Shown: piece by piece, positions 1,951 to 30,243 of the stretch
Position numbering within the stretch: the first letter of the stretch is position 1
How the letters are laid out: every line of letters begins with the position of its first letter
Source: a virus
IMG/VR virus record: IMGVR_UViG_3300035698_015831
Location: 1-30,243 of that record
Reading direction: 5' to 3' (one strand)
DNA length: 30,243 nt
The notes under the pieces: generated by a model
What the model was told of the DNA's origin: nothing
Seen by the model: the letters and a program-made list of their open reading frames with translations, nothing else
Database searches by the model: none
Program-made: the position numbers and the translations under genes

Positions 1951-2026
1951 TGGGGTGAGTGGTGGGGCTCGAACCCACGACATCTGCGACCACAACGCAG
2001 CGCTCTACCGCTGAGCTACACCCACC
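1951..2026 (-). tRNA. tRNA-His (GTG)
   Basis: A complete cloverleaf reads on the minus strand. The acceptor GTGGGTG pairs with CACTCAC through one G-U. The D stem is GCTC/GAGC, the anticodon stem CTGCG/CGCAG closes loop TTGTGGT (anticodon GTG), and the T arm is GTGGG-TTCGAGC-CCCAC. The extra 5' G (G-1) opposite C73, the histidine identity element, is encoded, and so is the 3' CCA. It lies 10 nt after the holin stop and so is probably co-transcribed with it. Confidence 0.93.
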
Positions 2027-4244: not shown

Positions 4245-4274
4245 ACTCTAGACCTTTGTCGGACACTTGTCAAC
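4245..4274 (-). promoter_or_regulatory. Promoter for leftward small-gene run
   Basis: TTGACA (4274-4269), an 18-nt spacer, then TAGAGT (4250-4245), about 24 nt before the ATG at 4221. The -35 is perfect and the -10 matches 4 of 6 and fits TAnnnT. Confidence 0.5.
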
Positions 4275-4281
4275 CAATAGA

Positions 4282-4731
4282 GACTAATTAAAACTATACT
4301 CTTAGACTTCCCCCCTGAGAACCTGCAGAACATCTCTGTCTCCTTATAAAAAACTATTCGACTATTCGACTAGTATACTTGTTTTTGAATACTCTAAGTC
4401 TCGACTATTTTTCTACTACGTGTATGTAGGTATTACGTGGGTAACCATAAATATAGTTACATCTTTACATATTGAAGACTAGTTGACTAGTTGCACTAAC
4501 ATCTTTTTTCACTTTACCAAGAACTTTTTATTGTTAGGCATTTCAAACTTACATGATTTCTAGGCACGAAAAAAACTCGCTATTCTTTGTTAGGTACTTT
4601 TGGAGGAGACCCCAGAAGCTCCCCAAAAAAGTGCATGAAAAAGTAAATATAGTAGACGAGCTATATGTAAAAATCGTAGGTATATGCTACAAGCTATATA
4701 ACTACTACGACTATAAGCGACTAGGTGACTA
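4282..4731 (+). repeat. Strand-biased GACTA motif cluster (iteron-like) in a non-coding gap
   Basis: The 516-nt gap 4222-4737 has no convincing gene. It holds nine GACTA pentamers, all on the plus strand, at 4282, 4360, 4368, 4403, 4477, 4485, 4709, 4719 and 4727; I see no TAGTC. Three groups are in 8-bp tandem register: 4352/4360/4368, 4477/4485/(4493, degenerate) and 4719/4727. The gap is clearly more AT-rich than its surroundings and has long A and T runs and an imperfect hairpin near 4598-4632. This resembles iterons of a replication origin or a multi-site operator, but nothing in the sequence decides between them. Confidence 0.6.
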
Positions 4732-4742
4732 AAAGAGTCACC
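4724..4742 (-). terminator. Perfect hairpin across the glycosyltransferase stop
   Basis: GGTGACT and AGTCACC pair perfectly (7 bp) around a 5-nt loop, spanning the stop codon of the glycosyltransferase gene. There is no U tract beyond it in the leftward RNA, so it may protect the 3' end or act as a weak terminator. It also contains the last GACTA motif. Confidence 0.35.
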
Positions 4743-5409
4743 AATCGAGAGTAAGGACAATTTGCTTATGGTGACCCACCCGCACCGAAGGGTCTACCCA
4801 AATCTGGAACCCAGCATTTTTGGCCTTCATACAGAAACTAAAATCTTCACTGGCGTTTATCTCGGGAAGAGATAGGGCTCTTGTAGGTACAGGCACTTTC
4901 AAAATTTCAAACCACGGGCGAGGCACTTTCTCGAATACCCCCTTCTTCATTGCTACGAAGCCAAAGCCCACACCGTCCACCTCGACAGGGGAGTCTGACA
5001 TCATAAAGGCAATTTTATCCATAATTCGAGGGGTACCCAGCTCCAGATTCATAGCACTTACCTGACCAGCACCACCCACGGCATAAAGACCAGAAACGAT
5101 ATCTAGCTCACTAAGGAGGAGTTTCTCGAAGTTTTCGACCGTCCAGCCTATATCCGAGTCAATCCAGAAAATCTTGTCGTAGGTGAACTTCCCCGAACCA
5201 ATCTCGTTTGTTTCCCAGTTCTGGCTGACCGTTCCCGTTGCGGTCATTTCACGAGCGCTAGACACAAAGGATGAATAATTATTGAGAAGTGTGTATGTGA
5301 AATCTTTCTCATTCAGCCACCGTAGCGTTTCTACTAAGGAATCGACATACGCAGCTTTATAGCTCTCCCCGGGGGTGGCAATCACGACATTGTAGTGAAA
5401 CTTTTTCAT
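4738..5409 (-). CDS. Glycosyltransferase, GT-A fold
   Basis: A 223-aa protein. The N-terminal strand is followed by FWIDSDIGW (residues 81-89), a DxD-type metal and nucleotide-sugar site (D84-S-D86). Then come GLYAVGG (108-114), a GFGFVAMKKGVFE acceptor-side segment (148-160) and NASEDFSFCMKAKNAG (185-200), whose Glu-Asp matches the usual catalytic region. A late VGHH may complete metal binding. The length suits a single catalytic domain without membrane segments, so it acts in the cytoplasm. Phage homologues may glycosylate virion proteins, DNA bases or host glycans; the acceptor cannot be read here. It has no SD; a TAGTAT box lies exactly 6 nt before the ATG. It is divergent from the endolysin gene. 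Confidence 0.8.
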   Translation of the reverse strand: MKKFHYNVVIATPGESYKAAYVDSLVETLRWLNEKDFTYTLLNNYSSFVSSAREMTATGTVSQNWETNEIGSGKFTYDKIFWIDSDIGWTVENFEKLLLSELDIVSGLYAVGGAGQVSAMNLELGTPRIMDKIAFMMSDSPVEVDGVGFGFVAMKKGVFEKVPRPWFEILKVPVPTRALSLPEINASEDFSFCMKAKNAGFQIWVDPSVRVGHHKQIVLTLDW

Positions 5410-5415
5410 AGAGGG

Positions 5416-5445
5416 ATACTATCAAATCTATCACTTTTTTGTCAT
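5416..5445 (-). promoter_or_regulatory. Leaderless-type promoter of the glycosyltransferase
   Basis: ATGACA (5445-5440), an 18-nt spacer and TAGTAT (5421-5416), then 6 nt to the ATG at 5409. Transcription would start at or next to the start codon. Confidence 0.45.
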
Positions 5446-5496: not shown

Positions 5497-5502
5497 TATA
5501 CT
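5497..5502 (+). promoter_or_regulatory. -10 box of the endolysin gene (leaderless type)
   Basis: TATACT is followed by 6 nt (CCTTAC) and the ATG at 5509. No SD and no clear -35 are visible. The spacing also argues for 5509 rather than 5494 or 5395 as the start. Confidence 0.45.
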
Positions 5503-5508
5503 CCTTAC

Positions 5509-6402
5509 ATGAGTTGGAATCCGGAGTATCTAGTCAAAGCTGCTAAAAAGTCTGGTGTCGAGTATGAAGTTGATGCCACATGGCGAAAGGTCGACCCTTA
5601 TGGCAAGGGCTTCCAACCAGTAGGAGTTGTCTGGCACCACACAGCGTGTGGAACATTTTCCAAAGGAAACATGCCATCTCTTAATTGGTGTCGCTTCCCG
5701 GGTCAGTATTCCGGGAAGGCTCGGGCTTGTCACATAGTTGTTGGGCGTGACGGCAAGTTTCAAATAATTGCAGGCAGTGGTGCATACCACGCAGGTGCCG
5801 GTGGTCCTATGAAAGTTAATGGAACCAAGATTCCCAAAGACCTTGGCAACCGCTTCCTAGTAGGTATCGAAATAGAAGCGAGCTCAACAACTAAGGTAAG
5901 GAAGAAGAATCGAACAACTCCAAAATCTGGAATGAACCCCGTTCAGTTTGTTGCTGTTGCCAAATACTGCGCTGCTTTATTCGACCTACTCGATTGGCAG
6001 ACCGAGGCGGCAATCCGCCACAGCGACTGGGCTCCTCGCAGGAAAGTAGATGTCGGAATCTCCCTAAAATCCCTCCGAAACGAAATCGACAAATATCGAA
6101 AGAAGTCGGGGAACCCCCAACCTGAAAAACCGGAAATAAAACCTATCATTCCTCAGGTGGTAAGGCTTTCGAATATTTCGTTTAGAAAAAGAGATGACCA
6201 AATTCTCATTGTTAAGCAAGCTCTTAACACAGAGTTCCGTCATGCTCGTTTACCGATGAGTCCATACTTCGGCAATAAGATGCGTAAACAGTATTCCAAG
6301 TGGCAGAAGTCTCTTGGGTATAAAGGCAAGGATACTGACGGCATTCCCGGTCGTGTATCACTAACGAAACTCGGAAAAAAGCACGGCTTCAAAGTATTGT
6401 AG
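5509..6402 (+). CDS. N-acetylmuramoyl-L-alanine amidase endolysin
   Basis: A 297-aa two-domain endolysin. The N-terminal Amidase_2 domain (about 1-190) has VWHHTA (41-46, zinc ligand His43), AYHAG (93-96), GIEIEA (119-124) and RHSDWAPRRKVDVG (170-183). His171 and Asp181 have the 10-residue spacing of AmpD-type zinc sites. It would cut the MurNAc-L-Ala bond. A Pro/Lys linker leads to a C-terminal peptidoglycan-binding-like domain (about 215-297, ending in AL...YSKWQKSLGYKGKDTDGIPG..SL..LG). There is no signal peptide, so release would need the holin. The start MSWNPEYLVK is favoured by the TATACT box 6 nt upstream; longer in-frame starts lack support. A strong terminator follows. Confidence 0.9.
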   Translation: MSWNPEYLVKAAKKSGVEYEVDATWRKVDPYGKGFQPVGVVWHHTACGTFSKGNMPSLNWCRFPGQYSGKARACHIVVGRDGKFQIIAGSGAYHAGAGGPMKVNGTKIPKDLGNRFLVGIEIEASSTTKVRKKNRTTPKSGMNPVQFVAVAKYCAALFDLLDWQTEAAIRHSDWAPRRKVDVGISLKSLRNEIDKYRKKSGNPQPEKPEIKPIIPQVVRLSNISFRKRDDQILIVKQALNTEFRHARLPMSPYFGNKMRKQYSKWQKSLGYKGKDTDGIPGRVSLTKLGKKHGFKVL

Positions 6403-7043: not shown

Positions 7044-7049
7044 TATGTT
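7044..7049 (+). promoter_or_regulatory. -10 box, leaderless type
   Basis: TATGTT followed by 6 nt and the ATG at 7056. No SD or obvious -35 is present. Confidence 0.35.
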
Positions 7050-7444: not shown

Positions 7445-7486
7445 ACTAGGGAGAATGTAATGGCAACTAGGGAGAATGTAATGGCA
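7445..7486 (+). repeat. 21-bp perfect tandem duplication carrying SD and start codon
   Basis: Two identical 21-bp units (7445-7465 and 7466-7486) each contain AGGGAG and an ATG 6 nt later. The unit is a multiple of three, so both starts (7460 and 7481) are in frame with the same gene. Confidence 0.95.
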
Positions 7487-7699
7487 CATGCTGATAAATT
7501 TTATCTCGATATGGCATATGAGCAAGACAAACAGAAGTTGACTGAGTACGTTGTGATAAATATTCTTACAGAGCTTGATGAAGTTATCGAGCTCAGCGAA
7601 AACGGCGGAACCAACCGTGACTTTATAGACGGCTTGAAGCGTGCTCGGTCAATTATTGCTCCAGAGCCGGAGTCATTGGACTATCCCCGACTTTTCTAG
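7460..7699 (+). CDS. Small acidic protein with duplicated start, 79 or 72 aa
   Basis: Both ATG7460 and ATG7481 have the same AGGGAG SD, giving MATRENVMAHADKF or MAHADKF. The rest is helical and acidic (KQKLTEYVVINILTELDEVIEL, FIDGLKRARSII). No family recognised. It sits immediately upstream of the RNR gene. Confidence 0.65.
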   Translation: MATRENVMAHADKFYLDMAYEQDKQKLTEYVVINILTELDEVIELSENGGTNRDFIDGLKRARSIIAPEPESLDYPRLF

Positions 7700-9879: not shown

Positions 9880-10839
9880 ATGTCTACTATTCAGTGGCCC
9901 ATTGACGGCAAGTATGGAAAAGATTTCAAAACAACTTCGTCGTTCGGATGGCGTACGCACCCGATTCAGAAAACTCGCAAGCATCACAACGGCGAGGACC
10001 TTTGGAGTTCGAGAGAACCTTGCTACATCGAAGCGATGGCTGACGGTGTTGTTCTCAAAGCTCGCAGGTCCACCCACCCAACAGGCGGTTTTGGTTACTA
10101 CGTAATACTTCAGCACAAAATTGCTGGCAGGTACTACACCTCTTTATACGCTCACATGCGTGCTAATTCAATTCAGGTGAAGGTTGGTCAGAAGGTCAAA
10201 GCAGGAACTGTTCTTGGGAAAATGGGCACCACCGGACATTCCACAGGGAAACACCTCCACTGGGAAATCTGGAGTGGCAAGAAGCATGGTTGGACCTCTA
10301 ACGGAAAAGGTTTCAAAGACCCCGTTGAGTTTATGAAGGAGTTCAGTGGAAAAGAATCTTCAGCTCCAGCTGCACCTGCACCCCAGAAGCCAACAACTTT
10401 CGCAGCTCCAAAAAGTAAACCAGCTCTTAGCGAATACCTCAGCAAGGGTGACCGAAATGTTGAAACTGCGTGGCTGCAGTATGTATTAGAGCTCAAGGTT
10501 GATGGGATTTTTGGGAGTGCTACTCGTAAAGCGGTTATAAGTTTCCAGAAGAAGATGGGACTTAGACCAGATGGGGTAGTTGGTCCTGTAACTTGGCGCA
10601 GGGTACCAGAAGACAAAATTGAAGTACGACAAGACGGAACTATCCCAAAGCCAGCACTCACTTCATGGCTTAAGCAAGGTTCCCGAGGAGAGGAAGTTCG
10701 CTACCTTCAACAAGAACTAGGGAGTAAAGTTGATGGTTTTTTTGGGAGTGCTACTAAATTAGCTGTCCGAAACTTCCAAAGGAGTGTTCGTCTCAAGGTT
10801 GATGGAATTGTTGGCCCGGTGACTTACAGCAGGCTGTAG
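9880..10839 (+). CDS. M23 metallopeptidase with two peptidoglycan-binding domains
   Basis: A 319-aa protein. Residues 1-155 form a lysostaphin/M23 domain with HHNGEDL (zinc ligands His36 and Asp40, H-x3-D), SLYAHM (His92) and GKHLHWE (His125 and His127, HxH), the full catalytic set. It would cut peptide cross-links. An Ala/Pro linker (160-180) leads to two PG_binding_1 repeats (about 184-241 and 261-319), each with a 'VDG.FGSAT..AV..FQ ... DG.VGPVT' core. The two repeats share identical DNA around TTTGGGAGTGCTACT, so the duplication is recent or conserved. There is no signal peptide. It could be a second endolysin or a tail-associated lysin. AGGAAATA precedes the ATG. Confidence 0.9.
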   Translation: MSTIQWPIDGKYGKDFKTTSSFGWRTHPIQKTRKHHNGEDLWSSREPCYIEAMADGVVLKARRSTHPTGGFGYYVILQHKIAGRYYTSLYAHMRANSIQVKVGQKVKAGTVLGKMGTTGHSTGKHLHWEIWSGKKHGWTSNGKGFKDPVEFMKEFSGKESSAPAAPAPQKPTTFAAPKSKPALSEYLSKGDRNVETAWLQYVLELKVDGIFGSATRKAVISFQKKMGLRPDGVVGPVTWRRVPEDKIEVRQDGTIPKPALTSWLKQGSRGEEVRYLQQELGSKVDGFFGSATKLAVRNFQRSVRLKVDGIVGPVTYSRL

Positions 10840-10849
10840 TATTTTCCGT

Positions 10850-11445: not shown

Positions 11446-11519
11446 GCCCCCTTAACTCAGCTGGCCAGAGTGCCTCACTTGTACCGAGGAAGTCTGCGGT
11501 TCGAATCCGCAAGGGGGCC
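11446..11519 (+). tRNA. tRNA-Thr (TGT)
   Basis: The acceptor GCCCCCT pairs with AGGGGGC. The D stem is ACTC/GAGT with GG in the loop. The anticodon arm CCTCA-CTTGTAC-CGAGG carries anticodon TGT with U33 and A37. The T arm is TGCGG-TTCGAAT-CCGCA. The bottom anticodon-stem pair is an A31-C39 mismatch. The 3' CCA is not encoded (CTA follows), so it needs the CCA-adding enzyme. Confidence 0.9.
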
Positions 11520-11527
11520 CTAAGCAG

Positions 11528-11569: not shown

Positions 11570-12538
11570 ATGAACTCGAAAGACTATCCAACAATTCGCA
11601 GACTCGGCGGTTCTGTTGTTGACGTTCGTAGATTTATTAAGAATGAGATTGTCTATGAGACAGATAAGTTCTGGTCTTGCTTTAACATGTCTATCGGATA
11701 TTGGCCCAAGAAAGGCTACGTTGCCACTTTCCGGTCCGGCAACTTCATATACGACAACCGAGGAACACATCGAATTGTTGACGGCTCAGCAGAGTTCAAA
11801 AATCAACTGTGGTTCTCAGAACTAGATAATAACTTCTCACCCAAAAAGCTTCGTCAGATTGACTTCTCTGAAGTCGAGGAGTACGAATTTAATCGTGGTG
11901 TGGAAGATGCTCGTCTTTTTTATCGAGACGGGGCGTGGAATTTTACTTGTGCTGTTCTAGAGAAGAACCAAGTTGAAAAGACTCGGGTTGCTGTTGCAAG
12001 GCTCGACTCAAAGTGCACAAAGGTCGTAGACTTCGAACTTCTACCGGGTCTTGATGCCTACGTTCCAGAAAAGAACTGGGTAGTTTCATATGAAGAAAAT
12101 GAAAACTTTGATTTCATTTCCGGCCCTAATCAAGTGGTTAAAGATGGGACACTTTATGCGTGGATGACTGACAATCCAGACATCTCGATGCTCCGGGGAA
12201 GCACTAATCTTCACCCCCTCGGCGACGGGACTTATCTTGCAATTATGCACAGGTCCTACACAGAGAGCGGAAGCTACTACGCAGCAGGGAGCTTTGGCAA
12301 CATCAATACAACATCCCGTGATTACGTTCAATACTTTGTTAGATTTAACAACGAGGGTTATATTATTTCCATGTCCGAGGGGTTCAAATTTCACTCTCCC
12401 GGTATAGAGGTCGCTTGCGGTTTGGTCGTTCAAAAAAACGACTTTCTTATGTCATTTGGAAAGAACGACGTTTCTTCCCACGTTGCTCGTCTCCCGATGG
12501 AGGCAGTTATTAAATCACTCAAGGCTGTTGACTACTAA
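11570..12538 (+). CDS. GH130-like five-bladed propeller protein
   Basis: A 322-aa protein whose repeated beta-rich segments and EFNRGVEDARLFYRDGAWNF (about 106-125) recall the 'EDPR/EDAR' motif of glycoside hydrolase/phosphorylase family 130 and related five-bladed propellers. Near the C-terminus GIEVACGLVVQKNDFLMSFG, followed by KND, matches the '..E.acGLv...d.llisfG..D' signature of the same superfamily. Such proteins phosphorolyse or hydrolyse mannosides, or act as uncharacterised glycan-binding partners of glycosyltransferases. There is no signal peptide. The SD is AAGGACAG. It joins three other glycan-related genes in this window. The family is moderately sure; the substrate is unknown. 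Confidence 0.55.
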   Translation: MNSKDYPTIRRLGGSVVDVRRFIKNEIVYETDKFWSCFNMSIGYWPKKGYVATFRSGNFIYDNRGTHRIVDGSAEFKNQLWFSELDNNFSPKKLRQIDFSEVEEYEFNRGVEDARLFYRDGAWNFTCAVLEKNQVEKTRVAVARLDSKCTKVVDFELLPGLDAYVPEKNWVVSYEENENFDFISGPNQVVKDGTLYAWMTDNPDISMLRGSTNLHPLGDGTYLAIMHRSYTESGSYYAAGSFGNINTTSRDYVQYFVRFNNEGYIISMSEGFKFHSPGIEVACGLVVQKNDFLMSFGKNDVSSHVARLPMEAVIKSLKAVDY

Positions 12539-12541
12539 GAT
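12536..12541 (+). promoter_or_regulatory. -10-like box, leaderless type
   Basis: TAAGAT, whose TAA is the stop of the preceding gene, lies 6 nt before the ATG at 12548. There is no SD. Confidence 0.35.
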
Positions 12542-12547
12542 TGTTCT

Positions 12548-12799
12548 ATGTCAGCAAAGGCGATGCACCCATCTGCCCAAAATGAACCAGAGCCAGAGCC
12601 AGAAGAACTTAATGAAATACTTGAATATCTGACAACCCGGGAGCGTTGCGACCAGTGCGGCTTGCAGTCATACTACAAAATCGTCTTCAAGCAGGGGGAA
12701 TTATTTCTCTGCTACCACCACTACAAAAGCCATGAAGACATGTTGTTTGAGGTAGCTGAAGACATCGTTGACGAGTCTGAGCTACTTCACAGACGCTAA
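12548..12799 (+). CDS. DUF7455-like zinc protein, 83 aa
   Basis: After a Pro/Glu-rich N-terminus (NEPEPEPEELNEIL) comes RCDQCGLQSYYKIVFKQGEL, then FLCYHHYKSHEDML. This matches the 'RCD.CGA.A......GEL.FC.HH...h...L' signature of DUF7455, common in Actinobacteria and their phages. It has a CxxC and a C..HH zinc site. Function unknown in the family. Its stop shares CTAA with the convergent gene at 12796. Confidence 0.75.
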   Translation: MSAKAMHPSAQNEPEPEPEELNEILEYLTTRERCDQCGLQSYYKIVFKQGELFLCYHHYKSHEDMLFEVAEDIVDESELLHRR

Positions 12800-13236
12800 G
12801 AGGTTTTTTTCTTCGCCGCTGTCTTCTTCTTGGGAGCAGGCTTTGGCTTTTCTTCTTCCACGGCTTCCTTAGTGTCGTCTGCCTTTTCAATTATTTCTTT
12901 GATAGGAAGGTCGGCACCACCAGCTACATCTTCAAGGATTGCTTCAAAATCTTCTGGGTTAACTAGAATGTCTTCGACAGCCCTAAAAGCAACCGACTGT
13001 GCAAGAACTTTTTTCTCTACCGTCTCAGTATGTATGCGGGGGCGGACAATTTGCATTTCTATGACTGTCTCGCCCTCTTCTTCTGCTTTGACGATGTGAA
13101 GCTCCCCGCTGCGCCAGACGACCACAGGGTCAGGAATCATCCCCATGAGGGGGCCAGAGACCATACAATCCTGCATGTGATTAGCAAGAATACTGGCATT
13201 GTTTGGCATTTGAGAGTAGCCACAGAGACATTTCAT
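12796..13236 (-). CDS. Hypothetical protein with N-terminal C2HC-like finger, 146 aa
   Basis: MKCLCGYS, then about 16 residues to LANHMQDC, gives a CxC...HxxxC zinc finger. A beta-rich middle and an acidic segment follow, and the tail is Lys/Ala/Pro-rich (KPKPAPKKKTAAKKKTS), similar to basic tails of phage structural or nucleoid-binding proteins. A TAGAAT box lies exactly 6 nt before the ATG with no SD. Confidence 0.6.
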   Translation of the reverse strand: MKCLCGYSQMPNNASILANHMQDCMVSGPLMGMIPDPVVVWRSGELHIVKAEEEGETVIEMQIVRPRIHTETVEKKVLAQSVAFRAVEDILVNPEDFEAILEDVAGGADLPIKEIIEKADDTKEAVEEEKPKPAPKKKTAAKKKTS

Positions 13237-13242
13237 ATTTCT

Positions 13243-13248
13243 ATTCTA
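13243..13248 (-). promoter_or_regulatory. -10 box, leaderless type
   Basis: TAGAAT (5 of 6 to consensus) is followed by 6 nt and the ATG at 13236. It lies in the short gap behind the gene at 13253..13573. Confidence 0.45.
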
Positions 13249-13252
13249 CATC

Positions 13253-13573
13253 TTATTTAGAGAGGGCATTCTTCCTTTGTGCTGCAAGGTTCTCTCCGGT
13301 CTTGTTTTTCCAGTGGACTCGTTTAATTCGGTCGGGCCGAAATGACCTGTAGTGCTTAAACCCTTTAGGGCCCCCAACGACATCAATCCACTCAGAGTCA
13401 ACACCGGGACTATAAACGTGTCTGACAAATCGGTACCTGCCTGACTCCCCCGTGATACTCAACTCCGTACCACGCTGAATTTTGCGACCGTTAGCTTCGT
13501 ACTCTTCGGTGACTACCCAGCTGTCGTCGGGGCGTGGTTCCTGTGGCTTACTTGATTTCCTTCGTCGTGCCAT
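13253..13573 (-). CDS. DUF7246-like actinophage protein, 106 aa
   Basis: A basic start (MARRRKSSK) is followed by DSWVVTEEYEANGRKIQRGTE, GRYRFVRHVY, WIDVVGGPKGFKHYRSFRPDRIKRVHWKNKT. This is a conserved pattern I recognise from many actinophages; from memory it corresponds to DUF7246. It is probably a small SH3-like or OB-like beta barrel that binds nucleic acid, though this is not established. It is driven by the clearest leaderless promoter in the window (13580..13608). Confidence 0.7.
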   Translation of the reverse strand: MARRRKSSKPQEPRPDDSWVVTEEYEANGRKIQRGTELSITGESGRYRFVRHVYSPGVDSEWIDVVGGPKGFKHYRSFRPDRIKRVHWKNKTGENLAAQRKNALSK

Positions 13574-13579
13574 GAATGT

Positions 13580-13608
13580 ATCATACCTCTTTTCATTCTA
13601 GAAGTCAA
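13580..13608 (-). promoter_or_regulatory. Leaderless promoter, TTGACT-17-TATGAT-6-ATG
   Basis: TTGACT (13608-13603), a 17-nt spacer and TATGAT (13585-13580), then 6 nt to the ATG at 13573. Both hexamers match consensus at 5 of 6. The expected +1 is the start codon. The -35 and spacer overlap one arm of the inverted repeat at 13596..13648. Confidence 0.7.
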
Positions 13609-13648
13609 ATCGAGTTTCTAAGATAAACTTATAGCATGACTTCTAGAA
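13596..13648. repeat. 12-bp perfect inverted repeat (operator-like)
   Basis: TTCTAGAAGTCA at 13596-13607 and TGACTTCTAGAA at 13637-13648 are exact reverse complements, separated by 29 nt. Each holds the palindrome TTCTAGAA, and the right copy extends to the 12-bp palindrome ACTTCTAGAAGT. The left arm covers the -35 and spacer of the leftward promoter. A repressor site controlling this divergent region is plausible. Confidence 0.6.
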
Positions 13649-13690
13649 GTAACGGATAGATTTGGTCTAATCACTGGCTAGGCCCGCCAT

Positions 13691-13696
13691 TAAACT
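13691..13696 (+). promoter_or_regulatory. -10 box, leaderless type
   Basis: TAAACT, 6 nt, then the ATG at 13703. A competing SD-led GTG start is at 13733 (GAGGAGGAG upstream). Confidence 0.4.
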
Positions 13697-13702
13697 CTCA
13701 AC

Positions 13703-14005
13703 ATGAGCGAGTTAAACGAGGAGGAGAACACAGTGTCCGATTCTTCAGAAGAGAACCCCCCCGAGAACTCCTCGGAAATTGAATTTGACGAAGATGCGTT
13801 TGAAGACGCTATTGGTTATAGCCCCTTGAACGAAGACGCCGTGCAGATGCACGAATTGTTCTTATCTTTTATAAAAGCTGGCTTCCTCGAACACCAAGCT
13901 CTTCGTCTTGTTGCTTTATTGATTAACCAAGCCAATGCCGAATCCATCATATTCGCCACACACGAAGACGAAGAAGAAGAAGACGATGAAGGTGAAGATG
14001 TCTGA
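13703..14005 (+). CDS. Acidic protein, 100 aa
   Basis: A very acidic N-terminus (MSELNEEENTVSDSSEEN) and C-terminus (HEDEEEEDDEGEDV) flank a helical core (AVQMHELFLSFIKAGFLEHQALRLVALLI). Leaderless initiation at 13703 is suggested by the TAAACT box. Alternatively GTG13733 (VSDSSEEN) follows a strong GAGGAGGAG. No family recognised. Confidence 0.55.
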   Translation: MSELNEEENTVSDSSEENPPENSSEIEFDEDAFEDAIGYSPLNEDAVQMHELFLSFIKAGFLEHQALRLVALLINQANAESIIFATHEDEEEEDDEGEDV

Positions 14006-14007
14006 AT

Positions 14008-14021
14008 GGGAGTCTGGAGAA
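14008..14021 (+). promoter_or_regulatory. Conserved start leader, copy A
   Basis: GGGAGTCTGGAGAA directly before ATG14022. One of four copies with identical 14-nt spacing. Confidence 0.7.
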
Positions 14022-14390
14022 ATGGGTTTTGACTCAGACGACTCTGACGACTACAAAGAGCGCTCAGACGAAATATTTCAGATTTTGATTAACACCGGGT
14101 CCCTTGTGATTATGGGCTACGACCATCAAGACGAACCTATCTATAGGTTTACCGAGAAGTGCAAAGAAGTCTTCCCCGAGTTGTATGACATGCATCAGGC
14201 AGAGGTAAACAACACTGCTAATGAGCTTTGGCAGATGGGGCTCATCAGTATTAACTTTACGGAGACCGACATGACGGTTCAAATTAGTCGGGACAACTTC
14301 AACAACATAAGAAACCACACGGGAGAGCTCACCAAAGAACAACTTAGCTTCCTGCATTCACTTGTTGTTCGTAGAGCTATGGATGACTAA
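14022..14390 (+). CDS. Hypothetical protein, 122 aa
   Basis: I prefer the start MGFDSDDSDD because it follows the conserved 14-nt leader shared with three other genes. An earlier ATG at 13998 (MSEWESGE) overlaps the upstream stop and remains possible. After an acidic N-terminus comes a mixed alpha/beta region (SDEIFQILINTGSLVIMGYD, YRFTEKCKEVFPELYDMHQAE, NELWQMGLISINF) that resembles a winged-helix-type fold. No family recognised. The gene ends in a CTAA shared with the convergent gene. Confidence 0.6.
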   Translation: MGFDSDDSDDYKERSDEIFQILINTGSLVIMGYDHQDEPIYRFTEKCKEVFPELYDMHQAEVNNTANELWQMGLISINFTETDMTVQISRDNFNNIRNHTGELTKEQLSFLHSLVVRRAMDD

Positions 14391-14692
14391 GACGGAATGA
14401 GGGGGTAGTCCTCAAGGGTGACTTTGCCTTCTAAGTACCCAATGATGGCCCTAGGAACAACGTACGAGAGAATTTCTCTTCCTTCACATACATTACAGGC
14501 GCAGAATGGCTGACCGCTCTCTGTTTCAGGGTCTGCTTCGGGACTGTCTATGTCAGCCTCCACTGATTCGTAGAGAACCATCATGTACTCCTCAAGACCC
14601 TTTTGCATCTCGACGCCCCATTCGGGGTCTTCAAGAGCAAACTTAATTCCTCGCTTTTCTTCATTATGTGTCATAGAATGAATACTACGCAT
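14387..14692 (-). CDS. Hypothetical protein with CxC..C cluster, 101 aa
   Basis: MRSIHSMTHNEEKRGIKF leads to an acidic helical middle (PEWGVEMQKGLEEYMMVLYE). FCACNVCEGREILSYVVP then carries three cysteines. An alternative start is Met7 at 14674, which has a TAGTAT box 7 nt upstream. No family recognised. Divergent from the gene at 14751. Confidence 0.55.
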   Translation of the reverse strand: MRSIHSMTHNEEKRGIKFALEDPEWGVEMQKGLEEYMMVLYESVEADIDSPEADPETESGQPFCACNVCEGREILSYVVPRAIIGYLEGKVTLEDYPLIPS

Positions 14693-14750
14693 AGTCCATG
14701 CTCATATGCAATACTTTGCGTAGTTATGCTAACTAGAGACGGAGGATGTA

Positions 14751-15008
14751 ATGATTTACTGCAAAATCCCTGAATATGACGTTTGCGTTATGATAGGTCA
14801 GTCTGGTCGCCTTGGTTGTTTTTCGTGCAGTTTCGGTGATGTTATGGAGAATGTGTTTTTAGCAGAGTCCACTCAGGAGATGTTGGACCACCTGTCGTCT
14901 CACGAACGCAAGGGCGACAACGCTCCCCCCGACCTCCACACCCGACTTGTTCAGGACGACCAAACCAACTTCCCCCATAACCCTATGCCCACAGAGCCTT
15001 CCTGTTAG
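14751..15008 (+). CDS. Small conserved-type actinophage protein, 85 aa
   Basis: MIYCKIPEYDVCVMIGQSG, then RLGCFSCSFGD, then STQEMLDHLSSHERKGDNAP. The CxxC followed by HLSSH could bind zinc. I recognise this 'YDVCVM.GQ...L.C.SC......T..ML.HL..H...GD..P' layout from small actinophage proteins, without a known function. A strong GGAGG SD lies 5 nt before the ATG. Confidence 0.65.
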   Translation: MIYCKIPEYDVCVMIGQSGRLGCFSCSFGDVMENVFLAESTQEMLDHLSSHERKGDNAPPDLHTRLVQDDQTNFPHNPMPTEPSC

Positions 15009-15016
15009 AACAAAAA

Positions 15017-15030
15017 GGGAGCCCGGAGAA
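15017..15030 (+). promoter_or_regulatory. Conserved start leader, copy B
   Basis: GGGAGCCCGGAGAA directly before ATG15031, preceded by AACAAAAA as in copy C. Confidence 0.7.
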
Positions 15031-15234
15031 ATGGATTTTGACATTGAGTTCGACACCATGATGTCCAACCAAGAGAAGTTCGAGCGTGCTTACCAGAAGG
15101 GCAAGTGGGATGAGCGTAGGCGCATCCTCGACAAGTTGGCCTATCAAGAAGAGCGATACGGGAACCGCAGGAGACACAGAATGACACCCAAGGAAGCCAT
15201 GCGGGTTATCTTCGGTAGACGGCTTTTTGAGTAA
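15031..15234 (+). CDS. Basic small protein, 67 aa
   Basis: MDFDIEFDTMMSNQEKFERAYQKGKW..., then a strongly basic helical stretch (ERRRILDKLAYQEERYGNRRRHR) and PKEAMRVIFGRRLFE. It may bind nucleic acid; no family recognised. The start is fixed by the conserved leader. The stop abuts the convergent gene with no gap. Confidence 0.65.
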   Translation: MDFDIEFDTMMSNQEKFERAYQKGKWDERRRILDKLAYQEERYGNRRRHRMTPKEAMRVIFGRRLFE

Positions 15235-15477
15235 TTAAGACAGGTTCAATATCCAATCAGTTACAATTTTCTGCCACTGCTTGTATTCAGGTTGACCAGC
15301 CCCGTCGGGAAGGTTGCGATTAGCAAGAACCTCTCTCTGGTAAAGCAACCTATCGTTTAGGTCATAAATCATTAAGTTGGCTCGAAAAGTTGCTTCCCCA
15401 ATTGGGACTACTTTGACTTGGTACTTTCCCCAGACGCCACCCTCCCACAAGGGGCGTGTATCAACTTCATCACTCAT
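15235..15477 (-). CDS. Hypothetical protein, 80 aa
   Basis: The start MSDEVDTRPLWEGG is preferred because GGAGG lies 6 nt upstream; a GTG 3 nt earlier is less likely. Beta-rich sequence (YQVKVVPIGEATFRANLMIYDL). It overlaps the end of the pyruvyl transferase gene by 8 nt, so it is coupled to it and may be functionally linked. Confidence 0.6.
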   Translation of the reverse strand: MSDEVDTRPLWEGGVWGKYQVKVVPIGEATFRANLMIYDLNDRLLYQREVLANRNLPDGAGQPEYKQWQKIVTDWILNLS

Positions 15478-16201
15478 CACTTTCCTCCTTCGAGAGCGAC
15501 CGATACCATTCTCGGCCTTCTACTACATCTTTGCAGAACTTTGGCTCTCCTAGACCTTCGGCAGCCATCCAATCAAACCACTCAGAAGCACAGTCGATAA
15601 AGCCTTCTTCTCCTTTTAGAGGTGCAAATGGGACCCCATAAACATGAGCGACGATGGCTGCGTGTATCGAACCAGTCAGAACAAAGCGAGCTCCGGAAAT
15701 CTTTTGGATAAACTCAATCATGTCTTTTTTTGTCTCGACTACAGGCGAAAACACAGCGTCTGCTTTGAGCTCAAAGATTGAGTCCGGGCTGTAGTCCGAT
15801 GGGTCTGAGATGCTACGGACAACAATGACAAGAGCGTTTGGCCCCCCCTTAGGAACAAAATCGGTAAGTTGGTACGCCGGGTCGTGCGTCACCTCAACTT
15901 CAACACCGTGTCGAGCGAGCTCTTCTTGCGTGCGGGGTCCTCGTGCTCCAATAAACTTGCATTCTTTGATGAGGTCCGACTCAAGCGGCTCACCTCGCCA
16001 CCCGCAGTTAATAAATACCGGAGTCAGGTCTTGGGCAATCGCAGCAATGATATGCCTGTTAGAGATTACGCCTCCAATAGGAAAATATAAGTTGTCCTTA
16101 TCATCATAGAAATCTTTGTATACTCCCTCTGGAAGTAAGACTTCATATAGGGCATCTCCAAAATTACGGGTAGTCCCGTCCATTTTCCATTCGTTAATCA
16201 C
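15470..16201 (-). CDS. Polysaccharide pyruvyl transferase-like protein
   Basis: A 243-aa protein with the PF04230 layout. NFGDAL (13-18) is the N-terminal signature. It is followed by PIGGVISN (41-48), FIGARGPRT (83-91), THDPAYQL (105-112) and TGSIHAAIVAHVYGVPFAPL (176-195), the conserved C-terminal ligand-binding block. Family members transfer pyruvate from PEP to sugars as ketals, or work in related glycan modification. At 243 aa it is shorter than typical members (~300+), mostly at the N-terminus. The start is GTG (MINEWKM) with promoter TTGGCA-17-TAGCCT ending 6 nt before it. A phage-borne copy suggests capping of a surface glycan. Confidence 0.75.
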   Translation of the reverse strand: MINEWKMDGTTRNFGDALYEVLLPEGVYKDFYDDKDNLYFPIGGVISNRHIIAAIAQDLTPVFINCGWRGEPLESDLIKECKFIGARGPRTQEELARHGVEVEVTHDPAYQLTDFVPKGGPNALVIVVRSISDPSDYSPDSIFELKADAVFSPVVETKKDMIEFIQKISGARFVLTGSIHAAIVAHVYGVPFAPLKGEEGFIDCASEWFDWMAAEGLGEPKFCKDVVEGREWYRSLSKEESDE

Positions 16202-16207
16202 TGGGAT

Positions 16208-16236
16208 AGGCTACCGTTTCTTATCTATCTTGCCAA
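16208..16236 (-). promoter_or_regulatory. Leaderless promoter, TTGGCA-17-TAGCCT-6-GTG
   Basis: TTGGCA (16236-16231), a 17-nt spacer and TAGCCT (16213-16208), then 6 nt to GTG16201. This supports GTG as the true start of the pyruvyl transferase gene. Confidence 0.6.
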
Positions 16237-16243
16237 TTAAGTA

Positions 16244-16744
16244 TTAAAGGAAAACGCCGTCAAGCAGAACTGACGACAATACGGCGATGTCTGGGTCAGC
16301 GCAAAGATTTATGTTTTCGTCTGAAATCATTTTGTAGATATCTCCCTCGGGGCTAACGTGTACGACAGAGCCGGAGTGGCCTATCCCCACCTGTGGAGCC
16401 CCGGGAATTAGAATTGCAGCGACTGTTGCGTGTTGCGCTACGTGCAACACTCCCCCACCTAACGAGAAAGGCCCAAAAGAGTCCTTTGTTACTTTTTCGG
16501 GTTCCCTGCGGATTAGTGGAATCTCTACTTCCGCTTGTTTTTCGGTGTTGAGCGGGTCGTCAATCAAAGCAAAGAAGACTGGTCTCTGAAAAAGAGGCTC
16601 CATGTGATTTGTTATATATGTAGTCATTGCTACCGAAGATTGAGCCCACTCAAAGGCAGACTTCGGTTTCCGACCAAAAATTGAGAACCCCCACATAAAA
16701 CCATCAAACTTCTGCGGAACGATGCAGATTTCTTTGGAACCCAT
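16244..16744 (-). CDS. Hypothetical protein, 166 aa
   Basis: Begins MGSKEICIVPQKFDGFMWGF. Beta-rich with several hydrophobic strands (VFFALIDDP, GGGVLHVAQHATVAAILIPG, IAVLSSVLLDGVFL). No family recognised. It lies just upstream of the pyruvyl transferase gene, and a perfect TATAAT lies 6 nt before its ATG. Confidence 0.6.
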   Translation of the reverse strand: MGSKEICIVPQKFDGFMWGFSIFGRKPKSAFEWAQSSVAMTTYITNHMEPLFQRPVFFALIDDPLNTEKQAEVEIPLIRREPEKVTKDSFGPFSLGGGVLHVAQHATVAAILIPGAPQVGIGHSGSVVHVSPEGDIYKMISDENINLCADPDIAVLSSVLLDGVFL

Positions 16745-16750
16745 CGCTAA

Positions 16751-16756
16751 ATTATA
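16751..16756 (-). promoter_or_regulatory. Consensus -10 box, leaderless type
   Basis: TATAAT, 6 nt (TTAGCG), then ATG16744. There is no SD. Confidence 0.55.
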
Positions 16757-16799
16757 CCCGCTTCGGATAAGGCTTTTTATGGCACGGGAGCCTGAAAAA

Positions 16800-16982
16800 T
16801 CAGTTTTCTAGATTCTTGTTTTCCTCTTCAACGATGCCTAGTTCGTTTGACAGCCACAGTTTGTAGTCCTCAAGCAACTTGAGCTGACCTCTTAAACCAT
16901 TGATGTTTTCATTAGTTTCTCGAAGTGCAGTCTGTAGATATTGATTACTGCGCTCAACCTTGAGTTTTGTGCCTTCAATCAT
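16800..16982 (-). CDS. Coiled-coil small protein, 60 aa
   Basis: Nearly the whole sequence (from KLKVERSNQYLQTALRETN to LSNELGIVEEENKNLEN) has heptad hydrophobics typical of a coiled coil. A TAAAAT box lies 6 nt before the ATG. Function unknown. Confidence 0.6.
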   Translation of the reverse strand: MIEGTKLKVERSNQYLQTALRETNENINGLRGQLKLLEDYKLWLSNELGIVEEENKNLEN

Positions 16983-16988
16983 TTACCT

Positions 16989-16994
16989 ATTTTA
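16989..16994 (-). promoter_or_regulatory. -10 box, leaderless type
   Basis: TAAAAT followed by AGGTAA and ATG16982. Confidence 0.45.

Positions 16995-27559: not shown

Positions 27560-30243
<2,684 letters not shown>

Follow-up and report, generated by a model that had tools for sequence, protein, structure and literature searches.

We analysed a 30,243-base IMG/VR virus record, a fragment of a virus of aquatic actinobacteria (the whole stretch is called the window below), and found that about one gene in five carries a leaderless box, the hexamer TAnnnT followed by 6 nt and the start codon, at positions -12 to -7. These boxes are very probably -10 elements of leaderless promoters, used by the RNA polymerase of the host together with the main (SigA-type) sigma factor, as judged from the signals that accompany them in the window and its relatives. 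All ten boxes proposed in the first-pass annotation were read directly from the window sequence and match letter for letter in hexamer, spacing and start codon, and both proposed -35 elements were likewise found at 17 nt. The last two entries below, which have a 7-nt spacer, are probable further leaderless starts, predicted because the wider set of starts shows a 2.3-fold enrichment at offset -13.

5416..5421, minus strand: putative -10 box TAGTAT, 6 nt before ATG 5409(-) of gene 4738-5409 (phrog_1574)
5497..5502, plus strand: putative -10 box TATACT before ATG 5509(+) of the endolysin/amidase gene 5509-6402
7044..7049, plus strand: putative -10 box TATGTT before ATG 7056(+), a gene with no informative orthologs
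12536..12541, plus strand: putative -10 box TAAGAT before ATG 12548(+) of the DUF7455 gene
13243..13248, minus strand: putative -10 box TAGAAT before ATG 13236(-)
13580..13585, minus strand: putative -10 box TATGAT before ATG 13573(-) of the DUF7246 gene
13603..13608, minus strand: putative -35 element TTGACT, 17 nt from the -10 box of 13573(-)
13691..13696, plus strand: putative -10 box TAAACT before ATG 13703(+)
16208..16213, minus strand: putative -10 box TAGCCT before GTG 16201(-) of the polysaccharide pyruvyl transferase-like gene
16231..16236, minus strand: putative -35 element TTGGCA, 17 nt from the -10 box of 16201(-), absent from the orthologs
16751..16756, minus strand: putative -10 box TATAAT before ATG 16744(-)
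16989..16994, minus strand: putative -10 box TAAAAT before ATG 16982(-)
10837..10842, plus strand: TAGTAT with a 7-nt spacer before ATG 10850(+)
14682..14687, minus strand: TAGTAT with a 7-nt spacer before ATG 14674(-)

The window was scanned with a fixed list of 47 genes, taking every ATG, GTG or TTG within the first 35 codons as a candidate start. TAnnnT stood at -12 in 9 of the 47 genes, against a mean of 1.28 and a maximum of 4 at the other 29 offsets (binomial P = 4e-6); the tenth site, 5509, lies 38 codons inside the longest open reading frame and hence outside the scan rule. The wider set comprised 1930 leftmost-ATG starts, free of redundancy, drawn from the window together with about 165 related viral loci; because the leftmost ATG was used, individual start assignments in this set may be wrong. 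The box was found at -12 in 193 of these starts (10.0%) versus a mean of 34 at other offsets, with 1-2% at the neighbouring offsets and 0.9% at -12 of the 6013 internal ATGs that served as control. A lesser shoulder stood at -13 (68 starts versus 29.5 expected, 3.5%), and the -12 spike was seen in every relatedness group, being weakest for DSL-LC01 (4/120). The first-pass annotation had proposed such a position scan over the phage and its relatives and had named a lack of enrichment at -12 as the outcome that would count against it; the scan gave a spike at this single position. Its estimate of about one chance hit per fifty genes is accurate or a little high, given a background of 0.7-2.1% per offset at other offsets. 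Its word "pervasive" holds insofar as 10 of the 47 genes (21%) have the box, but is too strong, as most other genes have SD-like (Shine-Dalgarno) sequences or no clear signal.

Box-bearing starts also differ from other starts in marks that the first-pass annotation had not used in this way, namely the initiator pyrimidine, the extended -10, the -35 spacing and ortholog conservation. Within the 193 boxes the interior favours G or T at -10, A at -9 (58%) and A at -8 (64%), giving a TA[G/T]AAT-like hexamer. The TG of an extended -10 precedes 46 of the 193 box-bearing starts versus 89 of the 1737 others (P 1e-15), and a TTGACA-like -35 lies at 17-18 nt in 16/193 versus 23/1737 (P 3e-7), with no excess of -35 elements among box-bearing starts at the control spacings of 12-13. 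A pyrimidine occupies -1 in 150 of the box-bearing starts (78%) and in 694 of the others (40%; P 6e-24), the share being 41-42% both for internal ATGs and for other starts that have no SD. SD motifs occur in 12% of box-bearing starts, which equals the background (11%, internal ATGs), versus 47% of other starts. As read from the letters, these marks are separate signs of transcription beginning on the A of the ATG. At the ten window sites, the pyrimidine at -1 is present in seven, being absent at 16201, 16744 and 16982, and a clear -35 is found at two.

When orthologs were aligned at the starts of the ten window genes, the flanking sequence was seen to vary around a box that keeps its place at -12. 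Orthologs of 5409(-) have TAnnnT at -12 in 7 of 14 starts and at -13 in two more, and the family of 13703 has it at -12 in all four distinct starts. At 13573 the box is kept in five orthologs (L162, L083, L096, L131 and L115) down to about 50% protein identity, and four of them have TTG at the -35 place at 17 nt (TTGACT in L162 and L083, TTGCTT in L096, TTGATT in L131). All five orthologous starts of 16201 are GTG with TAnnnT at -12, again down to 50% protein identity; TATAAT occurs in the same place in all three orthologs of 16744 (L162, L164, L167), and the box of 16982 is kept in both of its orthologs, as TAACAT in L163 and TAAGTT in L167. Other genes exchange the box for an SD: orthologs of 13236 have the identical box in L162 and L083 and an SD (GGAGGA) in L117, L118 and L085, and those of 5509 have TATAGT with a 7-nt spacer in L082 and SD-like sequences instead in L083 and L111. 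In all, 34 families hold both leaderless and SD members. Across all families, leaving out pairs whose upstream 30 nt were more than 70% identical, the box is common to ortholog pairs at -12 in 24-63% by identity bin versus 4-9% at other offsets, figures that are effect sizes and not tests because the pairs are not independent. By these comparisons the box is real and conserved in the phage family. The idea that leaderless promoters travel as portable modules of accessory genes was rejected, the rate being 7-13% whether a family occurs in one locus or in more than 30.

The clustering of boxes between 12.5 and 17 kb noted in the first-pass annotation is real but post hoc (7/12 genes versus 3/35 elsewhere, Fisher P = 0.001). 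Strands alternate in this stretch, where seven of the 12 genes would have a leaderless start of their own, and divergent starts have the highest box share in most of the related groups; because of this, the clustering fits a stretch of short transcription units. The TAA of the box at 12536 is at the same time the stop codon of the gene 11570-12538, and orthologs of 12548 have TAGACT, also on a TAG stop, in L162 and TAGGCT on TAG with an 8-nt spacer in L083. A stop codon doubling as the TA of a -10 was nevertheless rejected as a general arrangement, the needed T being found in 22% versus 20%. A gap of 9 is common in tandem genes, mostly because TAA or TAG runs into GGAG.

Apart from the boxes, the window has a start-associated SD module, GGGAGYCYGRAGAAATG, followed by similar first few codons, in four plus-strand copies at 14008, 15017, 17398 and 17907; no exact copy of the module was found among the fetched relatives. 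Gene 7460 has its SD and start duplicated by a tandem copy of actagggagaatgtaatggc at 7447-7487. The region 4270-4737 is AT-rich with few genes and repeated gactag/ctagt motifs, and may be an origin or have a control function. The stretch 27900-30243 has long coding repeats of the collagen-like Gly-X-Y type, which run past the window end; DSL-LC01 likewise has collagen-like genes.

A megablast search of the window against named phages gave no match. Among named phages, Actinomycetia phage DSL-LC01 and the ~190 kb Microbacterium phages A3Wally, Zooman and Pumpernickel are its closest relatives, with A3Wally and DSL-LC01 nearest by terminase and primase (terminases 62% and 78% identical, respectively). 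With start positions as deposited, TAnnnT occurs at -12 in 16 of the 141 annotated A3Wally starts versus 1.35 expected, several with TTGACA 17-18 nt upstream, and in 5/85 of GodonK; the 3/150 starts of DSL-LC01 are not significant. No -12 spike was found in Arthrobacter phage Atuin (1/77 starts) or in the control coliphage T4 (1/87), and these two counts rule out a universal phage property. Several ~2 Mb genomes from the class of Actinotalea have a tRNA that matches the tRNA-Thr(TGT) at 11446-11520 (+) with 96-97% identity over 76-81 bases, the next best among 395 genomes being 83%, and the tRNA-His at 1951-2025 (-) reaches 94% in the same ~2 Mb actinobacterial genome family. Both matches hint at this family as the host. 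In one ~2 Mb genome of the likely host lineage (52% GC), TAnnnT lies at -12 in 7.7% of starts versus 0.8% elsewhere; with the same spike in that genome, the phage would be following the start grammar of its probable host, and about as often. The first-pass view of such a phage region as unusual is weakened accordingly, given that actinobacterial hosts, the likely host-lineage genome and cultured A3Wally share the habit.

Were the mRNA to begin with the start codon itself, T-12, A-11 and T-7 would be placed exactly where the main sigma factor needs them. The host RNA polymerase with this factor would open the DNA at the box and begin on the codon's first base, giving a leaderless mRNA with AUG or GUG at its 5' end, on which host ribosomes would begin by the leaderless route that uses no Shine-Dalgarno sequence. 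A compact promoter would stand before every gene of this kind, or before the leading gene of a short run. The sequence evidence supports the predicted opening at the box and the start on the codon's first base, and we infer that the actual start sites lie at the start codons; the identity of the sigma factor and the translation step would follow from what is known of actinobacteria. It is quite improbable that true -10 elements are followed by very short leaders, with transcription starting a few bases upstream or translation at a start codon downstream: the enrichment at -13 gives the spacing some play, but the spike at -12 is sharp, the pyrimidine preference falls directly before the A of the ATG, and, with no SD to carry, a very short leader would bring no gain.

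There is only a very slight chance that the box acts in the mRNA, as a signal for translation that replaces the SD, and is no promoter at all. Such a signal would agree with the tie of the box to the start codon, with its replacing the SD and with the alternation of the two among orthologs, but the -35 elements at 17-18 nt, the extended -10 TG and the initiator pyrimidine enriched with it are features of DNA promoters. Barely credible is chance combined with a choice of start codons that fit the motif, an explanation to which the one chosen start inside a longer frame (5509) lends something; the scans already refute it (P about 4e-6 for the window, and a much larger excess among its relatives), and orthologs keep the box. 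The leaderless promoter reading, with the mycobacterial geometry claimed for it in the first pass, is borne out at sequence level by the -12 spike, initiator pyrimidine, extended -10, -35 spacing and ortholog conservation together.

Leaderless genes with TANNNT make up ~20% of actinobacterial genes, and bacterial orthologs switch between leaderless and SD (Zheng 2011, PMC3160421), while transcription start sites mapped in M. tuberculosis prefer a purine at +1 and a pyrimidine at -1, and TANNNT lies 7-12 bp before them (Cortes 2013, PMC3898074). The phage genes resemble them in having TANNNT ~12 nt before the start without SD, the pyrimidine at -1 and purine at +1, a share of ~20% of genes and ortholog switching. 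They differ in the -35: the M. tuberculosis map has no conserved -35 motif and mycobacteria do not require one, whereas the phage set is enriched in the extended -10 and has some -35 elements at 17-18 nt, the latter also in excess. In Deinococcus, TANNNT adjoining the open reading frame of leaderless genes was tested as a -10 element (PMC12340547), in cellular genes of another phylum and not in phage genomes. A survey of leaderless genes in actinophages was not found in the open literature searched, which does not disprove that one exists. The signal is thus of an already known host type and, as far as the searched literature goes, undescribed in this phage lineage.

Most genes of uncultured actinophages have no annotated regulation, and gene callers that expect an SD will misplace leaderless starts; the box offers a simple, sequence-only rule for locating promoters, for placing transcription starts and for choosing the right start codon in these phages. 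Cultured A3Wally offers a test bed for the fate of leaderless genes in infection. A further and rather unlikely possibility is that across a whole lineage of large actinophages leaderless mRNAs form a second gene class under selection, with 10-20% of starts and fixed in individual genes among orthologs, whose expression in infection is separate from that of the SD-led genes. Such a class may serve, for example, when SD-dependent initiation is limiting.
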